A stretch of DNA of 64,000 nucleotides from an uncultured Bacteroidota bacterium (GTDB lineage Bacteria; Bacteroidota; Bacteroidia; Bacteroidales; F082): the NCBI GenBank assembly GCA_903957365.1, contig CAJBPB010000034.1:1-64000 (forward strand). The letters are read 5' to 3'. Under the pieces are notes generated by a model. The model was given only the letters and a program-made list of their open reading frames with translations. It was not told the DNA's origin and did no database searches. Positions 44,138-50,185 of this stretch are shown here, piece by piece (within the stretch, counting starts at the first letter, position 1; every line of letters begins with the position of its first letter). The translations under genes and the position numbers were made by a program.

Positions 44138-45481
44138 ATGGAGGCTTTCCGCATATTTATTGTAGAAGACGACATTTTTTATGGAGAGATGTTAAAACAT
44201 CATCTTTCATTAAACCCGGATAATGAGGTTCATCTTTTCAAGACTGGAAATGATTGTTTAAAAAATCTTTTCAAGGCGCCTTCGCTGATTTCTCTTGATT
44301 ATAGTCTTCCTGATATGTCGGGTCTCGATGTGATGAAACAAATCCGCAAAGAAAACATGGATATTCCGATCATAATTGTATCGGGACAGGAAGATATTTC
44401 AACGGCTGTTGCCTTGCTGCGTGAAGGTGCTTATGATTATTTCGTAAAAGATTCAGATGTGAAAGACAGGCTGTGGAATGTAATCAAAAAGATACGTGAA
44501 AACCTGCAGTTAAAGCGTGAAATAAGTGATCTGAAAGAAGAAATCGGTAAAAAATATGAGTTTAGAAACGTAATAAAAGGCAATAGCCCGGCAATCAAAC
44601 AAATTTTCAGCCTGATCGAAAAAGCGATTAAAACCAACATCACTGTTTCAATAACAGGCGAAACAGGAACAGGTAAAGAATTGGTTGCCAAAGCGATACA
44701 CTATAATTCAACACGTGCCAAAAAACCATTTGTAGCGGTAAATGTTTCTGCAATTCCTAGTGAACTGATTGAAAGTGAAATGTTTGGTCATGAAAAAGGT
44801 AGTTTTACAGGTGCAGCCACACGAAAAATAGGAAAGTTTGAACTCGCACAGGGCGGAACCATTTTTCTGGATGAGATTGGAGAGATGGATCAGAATATGC
44901 AATCGAAATTGCTTCGTGTGCTTCAGGAACGGGAGCTCACACGTGTTGGCGGAAATGATACCATCAAGATTGATGTACGGCTTGTTGTAGCAACCAACCG
45001 TAACCTTACCGAAGAGGTTCACAAAGGGAGCTTCCGTGAAGACTTGTATTACAGGCTTTTAGGATTGCCAATTGAGATTCCGCCACTTCGTTTCCGGGGC
45101 AATGATATTTTATTACTTGCAAAGTATTTTGTTGATGATTTTTGTGCCGAAAACAAGATGCCACGACTGGTAATCACCGAAAACGCCCAGAACAAATTGA
45201 TGCGTTATTCATTTCCCGGCAATGTTCGTGAACTCAAAGCCATCATGGAACTTGCAACAGTCATGACTGATACCGATCAGATTGATGATAGTCATATCTC
45301 ATTCAATTCCACAGATTTATCAGGTAACTTTTTATTGGAAGAAAACACCCTGGAAGAATACAACAGGAAGATAATCAGGTATTATTTGCGCAAATACAAC
45401 AGCAATGTTTTACAGGTTGCCCAAAAACTAGAAATAGGGAAATCGACAATCTATCGTATGATGAAAGAAAATTTAATCTAA
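44138..45481 (+). CDS. NtrC-type sigma-54-dependent response regulator
   Basis: The 447-residue protein has three parts. The receiver domain (1-120) has phosphoacceptor Asp54 in LDYSLPDMSG and the acidic pair Asp11-Asp12. The AAA+ sigma-54 activator domain (about 145-375) has GETGTGKELVAKAIH (Walker A), GGTIFLDEIGEM (Walker B) and the sigma-54 contact loop reading GSFTGA instead of GAFTGA. A Fis-type HTH (about 400-447: VAQKLEIGKSTIYRMM) ends it. Serine in the loop occurs in working relatives, so activity is likely. It is followed after 7 nt by an HPt protein, so the pair is probably one phosphorelay unit; no histidine kinase is adjacent. Its ATG has a strong AGGAG ribosome-binding site, rare in this phylum. 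Confidence 0.93.
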   Translation: MEAFRIFIVEDDIFYGEMLKHHLSLNPDNEVHLFKTGNDCLKNLFKAPSLISLDYSLPDMSGLDVMKQIRKENMDIPIIIVSGQEDISTAVALLREGAYDYFVKDSDVKDRLWNVIKKIRENLQLKREISDLKEEIGKKYEFRNVIKGNSPAIKQIFSLIEKAIKTNITVSITGETGTGKELVAKAIHYNSTRAKKPFVAVNVSAIPSELIESEMFGHEKGSFTGAATRKIGKFELAQGGTIFLDEIGEMDQNMQSKLLRVLQERELTRVGGNDTIKIDVRLVVATNRNLTEEVHKGSFREDLYYRLLGLPIEIPPLRFRGNDILLLAKYFVDDFCAENKMPRLVITENAQNKLMRYSFPGNVRELKAIMELATVMTDTDQIDDSHISFNSTDLSGNFLLEENTLEEYNRKIIRYYLRKYNSNVLQVAQKLEIGKSTIYRMMKENLI

Positions 45482-45488
45482 CTGGTCT

Positions 45489-45848
45489 ATGAAAGTTGAT
45501 CCGGATTGTGTTTATAAACTTGATAAGCTTATTGAGTATATTGGTACCGACGAAGAAGTAATCAAAAATATGATCGGCATTTTCCTTACAACCACGCCAG
45601 ATTTACTTTCTCAGGTACTTGCTGGTTTGCAATCAGAAAATTATGATGAAATTGCCAAAAATGTTCACAAATTAAAACCAACACTTGACATCTTCGGGAT
45701 TGATTCGTTACATGATCCTATCAGGTCGATCGAGAATTATGCAAAGCAAAAAAAGAATATTCAAAAAATTGCTGAATTGATCGCTTTGTTAGAAAAAACA
45801 CTTGAAAAGGTTATATTTGAGCTTAAGAAAGATTTCAGTCTGAGTTAA
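45489..45848 (+). CDS. Histidine phosphotransfer (HPt) domain protein
   Basis: The 119-residue all-helical protein is a stand-alone HPt domain, which carries a phosphoryl group between receivers. The phosphoacceptor is His60 in NVHKLKPTLDIFGI, matching the HxLKP/S core. The gene starts 7 nt after the NtrC-type regulator and has the same direction, so the two should be co-expressed. The partner hybrid kinase is not in the window. It is followed by a convergent gene 49 nt away. Confidence 0.88.
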   Translation: MKVDPDCVYKLDKLIEYIGTDEEVIKNMIGIFLTTTPDLLSQVLAGLQSENYDEIAKNVHKLKPTLDIFGIDSLHDPIRSIENYAKQKKNIQKIAELIALLEKTLEKVIFELKKDFSLS

Positions 45849-45897: not shown

Positions 45898-47724
45898 CTA
45901 TTGAAAAACAATGGTTGCTGGCTTACCGATTTCAAAATCCTTGAATCCAAAATCCTGTGTTTCAAATGAATTTATCTTGAACACATTGTTTCCATTTCCC
46001 GGTATTGAAGGATAGAAGGACAGTGAAATCTGAAAAGTATTGATCACAAGATTATCGTTTTTTATCAAAACGCCAAGGCCGACCTGAGAGTAAGCTTTAC
46101 TGTTCTTAAAACCTGACGTTTCATTTCCTAGCATCCCAAAAGAACAAATGAAATAGGGTCCAAAACGAAAACCAATAAAATTCCACGGACTATAGGATTG
46201 TGTCTGAAAAGTGAGCACTGCGCGACTTGTTCCTTTTAGTACATTACTATTGAATCCTGCAATCCCGAATCCATCATTTATTGTTAAACTATCCGATTCA
46301 AACCGATTAAACCCGATCGTGAGTTGCGGTTTGATAAATTGCCTGAATTTCCATTTACCAACCTCAACAATTCCCGTGAAATAGTTTACACTGAAAGTAA
46401 AAATACCTTGCTCAGCGATTGAACTTCTGATAAATGTCCCTAATTCATAGTTGGCACTCATATATCCCCATGGATGATAATTACCAAATGAAACCCTGGC
46501 CCCTGCATACAATCGGTCAACGCCATTGATTTGCTGAAAGCCGCCGGTGACGCTATATACTTTCCCAATAGGAACGTCCTCAGTAATACCAAATTTAAAA
46601 ATATACTTGTCCTGCACATATTTTCTGGTTGAGATACCAATGCTCCCCAGATAAAAATCTTCATTAAAGAACAAATGTTCGTTGTAAGCGATTACTTCGG
46701 GCCTTTCGAGATACCGGATACGTAAAAACCGCGCTGCTGAAATAAAATTGGTTGTCCGGTCATTTTCTGTATTTCCTTTGAAAACCTGAAGTGCATTACC
46801 TCCCCAAAAATCCTGTGCGTTCAGTCTGTAATCCTGCTTTATTTTCAAGGTATCGCCAGAATCAACATATTCATTCAGATAAAGTTGGGTAAAATTTACG
46901 CCCGCAGCCCATTTAGCAAATGGTGAGAAAAACGGTCGATCCACTTCAAAACTTCGGACAGTATTCCCTTTCTCATCCAATCCATAATGAAATGTGGAGT
47001 TGATATAGGTGTTATTGATATTGGGAATATAGTAATTCGTGTAAAAGGAAGAATTTCCGGTTGTGTGTTGCCATGAAAACCCGTTATTAAATTCGTGTCC
47101 AAGTCCGACGAAGTTATTTGCAGCCAAAGAAACTTTTACGCGTGAACCTGAAACCGAAAAATCAGGGATCAAACTCCATTTATCTAATTCTCTGATAAAT
47201 ACATCGACAGAATCAGAGTTTTTTGACGCATTTTTAAATGTGAATGAAACATCGGTTACATAACCCATACTGCGCACCAAACGTTCAGACTCTTTTACCA
47301 GCAATGAATCAAATTCCTGATTTTTTTTGAAAAGTAAAAGATTACGAATGGTAATAGCGTGTGTTTTCAGATGCAGTGAATTTCCGGTTCTGGCAATGTA
47401 GTTTTGCGTAACTTCAACAGTATCAGCGATTGAATTGCCAAATGGATCAAGTGTAACTATGTTTATGTTTCGGATTGTCTTTCCTTCATGAGCGCTGTAA
47501 GGTTTTCTGACAATTTTCTTATATACTTTCTTTCTGGTTCCAACATCGGTTGGTTTGAAAAAAAAACCGTATGCTAGCTTTGTGAATTTATTACGGACTG
47601 AAAATGATTCAATATTCTTGTAAATCCTGGTTGAATCAATCTTTTTTTCAGGTTGCTGTGCGCTGGCATATTCAATTGATGAAACTGAAGCAATTAAAAA
47701 AATCAAAAAATACTTTAATCTCAT
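45898..47724 (-). CDS. Omp85/BamA-like outer-membrane barrel with POTRA region
   Basis: The roughly 608-residue protein has a signal peptide (MRLKYFLIFLIASVSS, ending ASAQQ). A POTRA-like region follows (about 85-185: GKTIRNINIVTLDPFG and VRSMGYVTDVSFTF). A C-terminal beta-barrel of about sixteen strands (from ~200) ends in the FQ-type aromatic tail expected for Bam substrates. A classical BamA has five POTRAs and about 800 residues, so this shorter protein is a different Omp85-type or two-partner barrel. The frame opens at a TTG at 47733; I prefer the ATG at 47724. It follows mlaD by 69 nt on the same strand, which suggests the outer-membrane partner of the mla system, by inference. Confidence 0.75.
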   Translation of the reverse strand: MRLKYFLIFLIASVSSIEYASAQQPEKKIDSTRIYKNIESFSVRNKFTKLAYGFFFKPTDVGTRKKVYKKIVRKPYSAHEGKTIRNINIVTLDPFGNSIADTVEVTQNYIARTGNSLHLKTHAITIRNLLLFKKNQEFDSLLVKESERLVRSMGYVTDVSFTFKNASKNSDSVDVFIRELDKWSLIPDFSVSGSRVKVSLAANNFVGLGHEFNNGFSWQHTTGNSSFYTNYYIPNINNTYINSTFHYGLDEKGNTVRSFEVDRPFFSPFAKWAAGVNFTQLYLNEYVDSGDTLKIKQDYRLNAQDFWGGNALQVFKGNTENDRTTNFISAARFLRIRYLERPEVIAYNEHLFFNEDFYLGSIGISTRKYVQDKYIFKFGITEDVPIGKVYSVTGGFQQINGVDRLYAGARVSFGNYHPWGYMSANYELGTFIRSSIAEQGIFTFSVNYFTGIVEVGKWKFRQFIKPQLTIGFNRFESDSLTINDGFGIAGFNSNVLKGTSRAVLTFQTQSYSPWNFIGFRFGPYFICSFGMLGNETSGFKNSKAYSQVGLGVLIKNDNLVINTFQISLSFYPSIPGNGNNVFKINSFETQDFGFKDFEIGKPATIVFQ

Positions 47725-47793
47725 GTATTTCAACTACTTTGAATGTTTCAACTGTTACTTTCCAGCCTTTGCAAATTAATTCCTTTTTGCCAA

Positions 47794-48519
47794 TTAAAAT
47801 TTGTCCTGCTTTGCTTTTTCTTCAGCTTCCTTTTTCTTTCTTTCAGCAACTCTGGCTTTTTTGTTAAAAAACCCTTTAAATAAAAAATTATGTTTCACAG
47901 CTTCCATATTTTCGTCCAATCCTCTCGAACTTTTCTTGAGATTGACGATCGTCTGGTTCAGGTTTTCGGCAATTGTCGAATCCTGTATCAACCTGCCTAA
48001 AGTCCCGTTACCACTATTTATCTTAACCATTATTTCAGCCAATTGTTGTGTAATAACTTCAACATAAGCAGCCGACACTTCAACACTTGCCATAATATTA
48101 TCCACTTCTACAGGTTCGGTAGATGCAAGTTCTTCTCCAATTTTGGCCAAAGGAGCATCACTACTTCCCTGGCTGATTACAAGCAGCCGGTCGCCTATCA
48201 GTCCTTCGGAACCCACGGCGACTTCACAATCCGATTTTATGAACTGTTTAATTTCCTGCCTTACCAACATATCAACCCTTACTGTTGAATCGTTGATAAT
48301 GCTAATTTTGTCAACTGTACCAACATTAATACCAGAAAAACGTACGTTGTTGCCAACTTGCAAACCACTTACATTGTAAAAGGTTGTTGTAAGTTTAAAA
48401 ACGGGATTAAACAGGTTTTTTTGTTTACCGATGATAAAAATGGCGATCAGAAATAGAGCCAGTCCACCGGCTACAAAAAGGCCAAGTCGTATTTTATATT
48501 TTTCAGAATGTGAATGCAT
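47794..48519 (-). CDS. mlaD: MCE-domain substrate-binding protein of the Mla system
   Basis: The 241-residue protein has a short cytoplasmic tail, one membrane helix (about 12-31) and an MCE domain (about 38-115: FYNVSGLQVGNNVRFSGINVGTVDKI). A helical tail ends in a lysine-rich coil. MlaD forms a hexameric ring on the periplasmic side of the MlaFE transporter and carries phospholipids. The C-terminal helical part is longer than in E. coli MlaD. It is 44 nt after the mlaF stop. The protein is complete and the MCE motif is clear. Confidence 0.9.
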   Translation of the reverse strand: MHSHSEKYKIRLGLFVAGGLALFLIAIFIIGKQKNLFNPVFKLTTTFYNVSGLQVGNNVRFSGINVGTVDKISIINDSTVRVDMLVRQEIKQFIKSDCEVAVGSEGLIGDRLLVISQGSSDAPLAKIGEELASTEPVEVDNIMASVEVSAAYVEVITQQLAEIMVKINSGNGTLGRLIQDSTIAENLNQTIVNLKKSSRGLDENMEAVKHNFLFKGFFNKKARVAERKKKEAEEKAKQDKF

Positions 48520-48563
48520 GATAATTTGTTTTTGAAATGTATATATTATTAATAAACAATGGG

Positions 48564-49346
48564 TTAACTAAAAAATGATTTTAATATCGGGTCTGATGAG
48601 GTTTCAAATTCCTTTAATTTTCCTTCCAGATATACAACTCCATCCTGTAACATGATCATCCGGTCAGCAGTCTGACGGGCGCAATTGATATCATGTGTGA
48701 TGATTATTGATGAAGTTTTATACTTTTTCTGCACTTCATTGATGAGTTCACTAATCTCATTGGAAGTCACAGGATCGAGGCCGGTTGTAGGTTCGTCGTA
48801 CAACATTATTTTTGGATCAACAACGATAGTACGGGCCAGACTGATTCGTTTTCGCATTCCTCCTGACAATTGTGAAGGCATTTTATATAAAGCATCGGTC
48901 AGACCAACATTCTCAAGTACCTCCTCTATTTTTGCAACAATTTCCTTTTCGGACAGATTACTTTTTATTCTTCGTAAAGGAAACTCAAGGTTCTCTTTCA
49001 CCGTCATGGAATCGTACAAAGCGCCACTTTGAAAAAGAAAGCCAATTTTTTGTCGTAATTCACCCAATTCATTGTTATTCAAAGAATTTAAATCCTGACC
49101 GAATACATTTATTGATCCGCTATCTGCACTTAGTAAGGCAACAATACATTTGATTAAAACAGATTTACCGCTACCCGATTTGCCAAGTACAACAAGATTT
49201 TCACCATTAAAAAGCTGCAATGAAACATCTTTCAACACCTCCTGATCAGCAAAGGATTTCTTCAGATTTTTAATTTCAATCACTGCCTCATGGACTTGAC
49301 CGGAGGATTTCACCTCATCCTGTATTTCAATTGTTTGTGTGCTCAT
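48564..49346 (-). CDS. mlaF: ABC transporter ATPase of the Mla phospholipid system
   Basis: The 260-residue ATPase has VLGKSGSGKSVLIKCIV (Walker A), the ABC signature LSGGMRKRISLARTI, and IMLYDEPTTGLDPVTS (Walker B). LSGGM followed by RKR is typical of the MlaF branch. It powers phospholipid transfer between inner and outer membranes with MlaE and MlaD. The start codon overlaps the mlaE stop by one base (TAATG), so it is translationally coupled. Confidence 0.94.
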   Translation of the reverse strand: MSTQTIEIQDEVKSSGQVHEAVIEIKNLKKSFADQEVLKDVSLQLFNGENLVVLGKSGSGKSVLIKCIVALLSADSGSINVFGQDLNSLNNNELGELRQKIGFLFQSGALYDSMTVKENLEFPLRRIKSNLSEKEIVAKIEEVLENVGLTDALYKMPSQLSGGMRKRISLARTIVVDPKIMLYDEPTTGLDPVTSNEISELINEVQKKYKTSSIIITHDINCARQTADRMIMLQDGVVYLEGKLKEFETSSDPILKSFFS

Positions 49347-50185
49347 TATAGTAACATATCAGTAACCTGTACAGCGATCATGTCAACAATTATCACAAGC
49401 AGTGATGCCAAAACCACAGCAGAATTAGCTGCAATACCAACACTTTCAGTCCCACGACCAGCATGATACCCTTTATAGGTTCCAACCAATCCGATTACCG
49501 CTCCAAAAAAGAATGATTTTATCACAGCAGGAAAGAAATCCATAAAATCAACCACACTGAATGCTTGTGCAAAAAACAATGAAAGAGTTACTTCTCCCTT
49601 TAAATTTGCGCCAGCCCAGCTTCCAACCAATCCAATCGCGTCTGCATACAAAATCAGCAAAGGAATCATCAATGTAGCTGCCAGTACTCTTGTCACAACC
49701 AAAAACCGGATTGGATTTGTTGACGACACTTCCATGGCATCAATCTGTTCAGTTACTTTCATTGAACCGAGCTCAGCGCCCATGCCTGAACCGATTTTAC
49801 CGGCACAGATAAGTGCTGTGATCACAGGACCCATTTCCCTGATCAATGAAACAGCCACCATACCCGGAAGCATGGATACCGCTCCGAAATCGACAAGAAC
49901 CGGCCTGGACTGTATTGTAAGTACCAACCCCATAATGGCTCCAGTGACGGAGATGAGTGGCAGTGTTTTATATCCTATTTGAAAACACTGGTGAAAGAAC
50001 TCTCTTAACTCAAATTTGCGTGAAAAAGTTTCTCTGACTATACTTGATATAAACAGAATAACATCAGCAAAAGCAGTTAAGAAATTACCTGCTTCTTCCG
50101 TTTTTGCCATTGTTTTTTCGCTGAGCCGGACGGTTTGTAAAGTCGCATAACCTGTAACCTTCCTGACTGGATTATATTTTTTCAT
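49346..50185 (-). CDS. mlaE: Permease of the Mla phospholipid ABC transporter
   Basis: The 279-residue protein belongs to the MlaE/YrbE permease family: about five membrane helices, SVTGAIMGLVLTIQSRPVL near residue 78, GKIGSGMGAELGSMKVTEQIDAMEVSSTNPI (the conserved family loop, near 136), and a final helix. The N-terminal extension (MKKYNPVRKVTGYATLQTVRL) is typical of Bacteroidetes. It is the first gene of the unit mlaE-mlaF-mlaD-Omp85-like. One of the six shared composite promoters lies upstream on this strand (50339-50403), with a leader of about 150 nt. Confidence 0.93.
   Translation of the reverse strand: MKKYNPVRKVTGYATLQTVRLSEKTMAKTEEAGNFLTAFADVILFISSIVRETFSRKFELREFFHQCFQIGYKTLPLISVTGAIMGLVLTIQSRPVLVDFGAVSMLPGMVAVSLIREMGPVITALICAGKIGSGMGAELGSMKVTEQIDAMEVSSTNPIRFLVVTRVLAATLMIPLLILYADAIGLVGSWAGANLKGEVTLSLFFAQAFSVVDFMDFFPAVIKSFFFGAVIGLVGTYKGYHAGRGTESVGIAANSAVVLASLLVIIVDMIAVQVTDMLL

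Follow-up and report, generated by a model that had tools for sequence, protein, structure and literature searches.

An Omp85-like barrel gene ends a second mlaEFD unit in an uncultured Bacteroidales bacterium and is a candidate outer-membrane partner for lipid transport

The stretch analysed here (the window) comprises 64,000 nucleotides of an uncultured Bacteroidota bacterium of the Bacteroidales lineage F082 (assembly GCA_903957365.1, contig CAJBPB010000034.1, positions 1 to 64,000). On its minus strand, from position 50185 to 45898, open reading frame (ORF) calls and Pfam matches place mlaE, mlaF, mlaD and a gene for an Omp85-like β-barrel protein head to tail. We propose, with moderate confidence and from sequence and structural modelling, that this barrel is the outer-membrane terminus of phospholipid transport and the partner of MlaEFD in this lineage. 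Four results carry the proposal: the gene order, its conservation among relatives, the predicted fold of the barrel protein, and the failure to find MlaA and MlaC in the genome. From these we infer contact among the proteins and the passage of lipid by the barrel, and, by analogy, the direction of transport.

Results

Organization of the four-gene unit

The mlaE gene (49346-50185, minus strand, as for all features of the unit) codes for a 279-amino acid permease that matches Pfam MlaE with 231 bits and has the MlaE structures 6xbd and 7ch8 as relatives in the PDB. The mlaF product (48564-49346) is a 260-amino acid ATPase, assigned from a match to Pfam ABC_tran (119 bits) and from its adjacency. 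MlaD (47794-48519, 241 amino acids) matches Pfam MlaD with 55.5 bits at residues 43-118, which places the MCE domain (PF02470) at 48166-48393. Homologues of MlaE, MlaF and MlaD thus stand together in one unit, as in an MlaEFD (MCE ATP-binding cassette) transporter. The barrel gene (45898-47733) codes for 611 amino acids from the TTG codon of the ORF, or for 608 from an in-frame ATG at 47724. The ATG is the likelier start, because it sits before a signal-peptide-like stretch, which by eye ends ASA-QQ.

The mlaE and mlaF genes overlap by 1 base, 44 bases separate mlaF from mlaD, and the gap between mlaD and the barrel gene is 60 bases to the TTG or 69 bases to the ATG (47725-47793). A scan of this last gap found no terminator-like site. 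Promoter scans of the window were uninformative, both for the Bacteroidetes-type pattern (3 matches versus a shuffle mean of 4) and for the sigma-70 type. The four genes probably form one transcript. The initial annotation, which had been made from the sequence alone, was right about their order, coordinates and strand, and its suggestion of a shared transcript is in keeping with the short gap and the lack of a terminator-like site in it.

Predicted structure of the barrel protein

An AlphaFold2 model built from an alignment of 95 unmodified translations reached a predicted local distance difference test score (pLDDT) of 85.2 and a predicted template-modelling score (pTM) of 0.80; a shallower run on 8 sequences gave a poor model (pLDDT 57), from which nothing was concluded. 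The model runs from an N-terminal helix through a weakly predicted linker to a single POTRA domain (86-184 in the model; delimited as residues 84-185, 47179-47484) and a transmembrane β-barrel (residues 188-588, 45970-47172). The POTRA elements are a strand at 86-95, helices at 112-120, 126-130 and 143-154, and strands at 159-168 and 175-184, and the block has a pLDDT of at least 90 save for 101-120 (73, 83). A POTRA domain ahead of a barrel, in an overall fold like that of solved Omp85/TpsB members, is what the structure comparisons returned. The top Foldseek match was BamA (E-value 4e-12, probability 1.00), with TamA and FhaC close and template-modelling scores of ∼0.3-0.4. Among the families that it lists, VIA-align gave FhaC (Z 15.5, root-mean-square deviation (rmsd) 7.5, 340 residues aligned), TamA (Z 15.1, rmsd 8.3) and BamA (Z ∼14, rmsd 6.3-6.8). 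TonB receptors, which have 22 strands, superposed at rmsd 4.4-4.6 Å with lower Z values (11.6-11.9). By DSSP the model has 20 strands in residues 188-588, and the barrel-only BamA entry 7nre aligns starting at model residue 243, that is, four strands in. The model therefore fits a barrel of more than the 16 strands of Omp85 proteins.

By sequence, a profile of the barrel family matched BamA (E-value 9.8e-4) in a region that runs from the last POTRA (POTRA5) into the opening strands of the barrel and holds an N-x-x-G-x-G stretch common to both. Together with the model and the Foldseek result, this bears out the earlier identification of the gene product as a POTRA-barrel protein. Pfam POTRA itself scored 16.6 bits in the window barrel, below its cut-off of 21.3, and reached at best an E-value of 0.003, in three of eight barrel members. 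Pfam Omp85 (PF01103) matched neither the window barrel nor seven relatives; a PF01103 search of the genome returned five other proteins, the window barrel not among them. No match to the barrel was found in NCBIfam, nor by sequence in the PDB. In Omp85 proteins the loop-6 motif is [V/I]RG[F/Y]; in our alignment the glycine is present in 93/95 and the phenylalanine in 81/95 proteins, but the arginine in only 16/95.

We conclude from the model that the protein is Omp85-like and would lie outside the 16-strand Omp85 group. The label of an ordinary Omp85 paralog was rejected, since there is no Pfam Omp85 match and the loop-6 arginine is not kept. A paralog of TamL (hhalign probability 4.8%) and a paralog of the genome's own BamA-like protein (0.1%) were rejected as well. 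We found no name for the barrel family, and a literature search in which subscription journals were mostly outside reach yielded no description that we recognised.

Conservation of the gene order

Relatives were collected by a profile search of named genomes, and the best 80 barrel loci, out of a larger number, were read; they were selected for their likeness to the window barrel and are mutually related. Upstream neighbours were counted in the 73 loci with at least 800 bases upstream. The next same-strand ORF upstream of the barrel is mlaD in 57/73, and mlaD lies within 2 kb in 63/73. The median gap between the two genes is 49 bases, with seven gaps of 0-6 bases. The outer flanks vary among loci (OmpA-like, ice-binding-like, AI-2E, BrkB, tandem mlaEFD, TamB-TamL). 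The initial annotation would have given up its proposal had the barrel gene rarely neighboured mlaD; in close relatives it commonly does.

A maximum-likelihood tree (quick method) was made from 109 barrels, omitting proteins shorter than 550 amino acids and locus L043, which shares the contig of L023. Sixty-nine of the 109 rows are mla-linked, and the linkage requires 13 gains or losses, as against a mean of 32.7 for shuffled states; at least 10 of the 13 changes are forced by starred branches. Linkage is seen on well-separated branches, and the gene order is kept with a divergent barrel (L132) and in another lineage (L131). Linked barrels lie on contigs named Prolixibacteraceae, Marinilabiliaceae, Salinivirgaceae and other Bacteroidales, with one labelled Ignavibacteriaceae. 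Among named strains, the linked unit occurs in Marinilabilia salmonicolor (L098), Natronoflexus pectinivorans (L099) and Mariniphaga sediminis (L089).

Several loci depart from the simple order. Tandem mlaEFD pairs precede the barrel in L047, L050, L051, L052, L054, L055, L056, L061, L066 and L067, with a first MlaD of 316-354 and a second of 234-247 amino acids. An alpha/beta hydrolase-like gene (∼270 amino acids; Pfam match obtained on L058 only) is inserted after mlaD and ahead of the barrel gene in L057, L058 and L080; L076 has an ORF of similar size at that place. At L026 (genome G007, contig C90, 15000-29000) mlaE, mlaD and the barrel gene are all decayed, with internal stops or as fragments, and some neighbouring ORFs are intact, as if the unit had been lost together. 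Barrel homologues of ∼50% identity were also found on contigs labelled Fibrobacterota (L116, L117 and L118), which suggests interphylum transfer or a binning error; L116 and L117 have no mlaEFD beside the barrel, and L118 is truncated upstream.

MlaD and the other Mla genes of the host genome

The window MlaD has an N-terminal hydrophobic helix, one MCE domain and a tail of ∼120 amino acids, which in the alignment looks repetitive and helical by eye. The initial annotation had taken this tail to be lengthened and to bridge part of the periplasm. That idea of a special bridge was rejected, as the length is ordinary and long only against the 183 amino acids of Escherichia coli MlaD. Barrel-linked MlaD proteins have a median of 246 amino acids (n = 64, a few cut by contig ends), close to the 241 of the window protein, and the other MlaD of this genome has 315. 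In a survey, longer-type MlaD homologues made up 85% of those covered, with an average of 374 amino acids (PMC10665443; here and below, papers are cited for the parts of their text that were available). In barrel-less units from 295 genomes drawn evenly from the class (the class draw), MlaD measures 223-334 amino acids, with at least 295 in 16/18; four barrel-less units of the family, with an MlaD of 237 amino acids, go against a simple length rule. Longer forms of barrel-linked MlaD (e.g., L024, L025 and L029) add ∼75 amino acids, which in the alignment may be read as one more repeat copy. Judged by its sequence, the window MlaD is short for the phylum, with no room for a barrel of its own.

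The source genome is a draft of 4.4 Mb in 385 contigs and is 96% complete. Searches of it for MlaA (PF04333) and MlaC (PF05494) gave no match, and the E. coli and Caulobacter controls were positive. MlaA and MlaC, first noted as not seen beside the unit, were thus not found elsewhere in the draft genome either; for MlaB (STAS) the negative covers the four-gene unit, the rest of the genome not having been searched. Elsewhere the genome carries a second MlaE-MlaF pair, the separate 315-amino acid MlaD, which adjoins an amidase-looking ORF (by eye), five other PF01103 proteins and one TamB. MlaE is present in 55/60 genomes of the family, mostly in single copy. Because of the separate MlaD and MlaE-MlaF pair, and because the family mostly has a single MlaE, the window mlaEFD is an extra, sporadic second unit of this genome.

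Other lipid-transport genes beside the barrel

Setting aside mla-linked rows, rows truncated at a contig end and remote rows leaves 32 rows of the tree. In 10 of them a gene for another lipid-bridge protein adjoins the barrel. TamB or TamL accounts for six rows, representing five distinct loci: TamB and TamL follow the barrel at L028/L093 (one locus), TamB follows it at L092, truncated where the sequence of that locus ends, and TamL precedes it at L135, L138 and L139. An AsmA-like protein of 540-574 amino acids accounts for the other four. In L124 (4298-6022; 21 bases away) and L125 (5042-6724; 15 bases) its gene immediately precedes the barrel gene in the same orientation; in L133 (7063-8406) it is a contig-end fragment upstream, and in L097 (7811-9445) it is divergent. 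Genes of the same kind are convergent with the barrel in the mla-linked L090 (7784-9364) and stand beside mlaD without a barrel in L032 (8861-10471). The AsmA-like label rests on scores below the cut-offs (DUF748, 23.1 bits in L124; DUF748, 19.6 and AsmA, 16.4 bits in L097); L125 and L133 match neither AsmA nor DUF748 and are homologous to L124 by BLAST. The six strongest AsmA-like matches in the class draw are all in genomes with a barrel match. Three of these genomes, G252, G279 and G281, supplied query rows; in the remaining three the gene is 1.7 kb from a barrel fragment (G268), ∼7 kb from an mlaE (G340), or on a different contig from the barrel (G192).

The barrel could instead be an Omp85-type foldase or insertase for some outer-membrane protein or lipoprotein, kept near lipid genes through shared envelope repair. 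Such a role would suit its nearest folds (BamA, TamA and FhaC) and the adjoining Omp85-like TamL in three class genomes (L135, L138 and L139), and in vitro assembly of outer-membrane proteins by the translocation and assembly module (TAM) has been reported (PMC11341756). The scarcity of the loop-6 arginine, the larger predicted barrel of ∼20 strands and the single POTRA argue against it; moreover, the genome already has five other PF01103 proteins, and an insertase would not need the recurrent coupling to the lipid transporter MlaEFD. We regard this explanation as rather unlikely.

Stress genes around the unit

Genes for a response regulator of the sigma-54 type and for an Hpt-domain protein (44138-45848) end beside the barrel gene on the opposite strand, and both stay near it within the genus (L023). 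On the other side of the unit, the segment 50550-63420 contains genes for OmpA/TSP3, CsbD, YtxH and AI-2E permease proteins, ice-binding-like repeats and a small coiled lipoprotein (both by eye), and a holin-like protein scoring just below the cut-off; its content resembles that of an envelope-stress cluster. In relatives, CsbD, holin-like and AI-2E genes recur beside the barrel or mlaEFD in 9-14/80 loci each (many of the 80 contigs being short), as do YtxH-like genes, noted by eye and uncounted. The AI-2E permease gene is the direct upstream neighbour of the barrel in L123, L127 and L128.

If the barrel and mlaEFD were independent members of an envelope-stress cluster, co-regulation would explain their adjacency. 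Yet the stress genes reshuffle from locus to locus, as opposed to the contact of mlaD and barrel in 57/73 loci with gaps down to 0 bases, and among unlinked barrels lipid-bridge neighbours appear again in 10/32 rows. What speaks for co-regulation is the recurrence of CsbD, holin-like and AI-2E genes (and, by eye, YtxH-like genes) both in the loci and at 60-63 kb of the window, the AI-2E gene directly upstream of the barrel in the three loci named above, and the many genomes that hold one part without the other. We consider it unlikely.

Extent of the linkage in the family and class

Several observations weigh against a partnership of the barrel with MlaEFD. The linked loci are akin to each other and were chosen for their resemblance to the window barrel, and the window region is rich in stress genes, whose co-regulation could account for the proximity. 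Only 11 of the 60 family genomes have a unit of the window's kind, with one further divergent unit in G040. In 5/11 (one of them decayed) the barrel gene adjoins the unit, and in two it lies on the same strand at a distance of ∼20 kb; in the other 4/11 no close barrel was found. In the class draw, 39 genomes match the barrel profile, and 26 remain after setting aside 12 low-scoring ones (≤214 bits) and the window's own; 20 of these 26 barrel loci were read directly. The barrel lies within 8 kb of mlaE in at least 5/26. The order mlaE-F-D-barrel occurs in two of the class genomes (G159 and G119) among the matches listed, and mlaE is within 8 kb of the barrel in another arrangement in G252, G281 and G299. 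Twenty further mlaE loci were chosen by hand among the matches listed, linked ones being handled separately: a barrel stands behind mlaE in 0/20, and mlaD stands beside mlaE in 18/20. Finally, no lipid-transport gene is directly beside the barrel in 22/32 unlinked rows. Since units without a barrel and barrels without a nearby mlaE both occur, it appears that neither part needs the other.

A universal mlaEFD-barrel pairing in Bacteroidia was accordingly rejected (at least 5/26 linked; 0/20 further mlaE loci). The survey of mlaD neighbours that the initial annotation had called for thus upholds its proposal among close relatives and not across the class. Two or more MlaE proteins are found in 22/26 class genomes with a close barrel relative versus 75/268 others (Fisher p = 1.9e-8, a value that ignores kinship and genome size). 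Among 10 genomes picked for an unlinked or contig-cut barrel, three drafts (those of L092, L096 and L097) show only a housekeeping-like MlaE, although genes may be missing from such drafts; of these, the L092 genome has TamB beside the barrel and the L097 genome the AsmA-like gene. As only part of the barrel family shows the linkage and TamB, TamL or AsmA-like genes can take the neighbouring place, the barrel is not an exclusive MlaEFD subunit.

Discussion

In the arrangement that we propose, the four genes would act as one functional unit, a second and sporadic MlaEFD lipid transporter equipped with an outer-membrane partner of its own. The barrel protein would be secreted and folded in the outer membrane with its one POTRA in the periplasm, and would act there as the lipid terminus. 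Phospholipids would pass between the outer-membrane leaflet and the MlaD hexamer, through or along the barrel and the POTRA, and MlaE and MlaF would provide the energy. The direction would be retrograde by analogy with Mla, for which a review favours that direction (PMC10212509). The initial annotation had offered the barrel as an alternative outer-membrane gate for phospholipids; the conserved unit, the Omp85-like fold and the failure to find MlaA and MlaC agree with that idea, but not with a gate reserved for MlaEFD.

Like the E. coli system (MlaFEDB-MlaC-MlaA/OmpC), the unit contains MlaE, MlaF and MlaD homologues; it differs in having an Omp85-like barrel gene where E. coli has the lipoprotein MlaA on a porin, and from the canonical six-part Mla in that neither MlaA nor MlaC was found in the draft genome. 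Bacteroides thetaiotaomicron likewise is described as lacking mlaA and mlaC, and the Mla of Bacteroidota has been flagged for exploration (PMC11131202, PMC10212509). Veillonella parvula offers a closer parallel, with an MlaEFD-only core, no MlaA or MlaC and a barrel at the outer-membrane end; there, however, the 10-stranded barrel is the C-terminus of the 419-amino acid MlaD, whereas here it would be a separate POTRA-barrel protein (PMC10665443). The window MlaD, with ∼120 amino acids after the MCE domain, has no such C-terminal barrel, and the same paper, surveying 1083 genomes, gives the MlaD barrel as absent from the Fibrobacteres-Chlorobi-Bacteroidetes (FCB) group. In chloroplasts an MlaEFD-type transporter, TGD1-3, is served by TGD4, a phosphatidic acid-binding barrel of the outer envelope (PMC5948301), a parallel in arrangement only. 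TGD4 and the Veillonella MlaD show that a barrel can form the end of an MlaEFD-type system.

The TAM (TamA/TamL with TamB) also joins an Omp85-fold outer-membrane protein to a periplasmic bridge anchored in the inner membrane; TamL differs from the window barrel by its three POTRAs, lipoprotein signal and 16-stranded barrel (PMC12045153), and the hhalign comparison of the two families gave no convincing match. PlpD, of another Omp85 subgroup, shares the single POTRA ahead of the barrel and, unlike the window protein, bears a patatin domain (PMC4104836).

A different cargo can be considered for the same unit. MCE systems elsewhere carry other cargo, and the unit might move another hydrophobic molecule, e.g., a sphingolipid, a sulfonolipid or a compound from outside, for which the barrel would be the dedicated pore of uptake or export. 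This would suit an MlaEFD that comes in addition to a housekeeping MlaE and MlaD, and also the hydrolase-like gene between mlaD and barrel (L057, L058 and L080, with the like-sized ORF in L076). Against it, no cargo-specific enzyme is constant across the loci and the sequence gives nothing to tell cargoes apart, and we hold this explanation to be improbable.

Since the barrel adjoins AsmA-like, TamB or TamL genes in some other lineages, it may be an outer-membrane terminus for a wider set of periplasmic lipid carriers, MlaEFD being its partner here. Wider still, and only as a tentative and somewhat doubtful extension, the ∼20-stranded, single-POTRA barrels of Bacteroidota and of the contigs labelled Fibrobacterota might be a shared lipid gate for MCE/MlaEFD, AsmA-like and TamB proteins, which here would replace the MlaA-porin complex. 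The barrel gene in the mlaEFD unit provides a specific candidate for the outer-membrane end of Mla in Bacteroidota and, if the partnership is true, the MCE and AsmA routes would be tied to one outer-membrane part.

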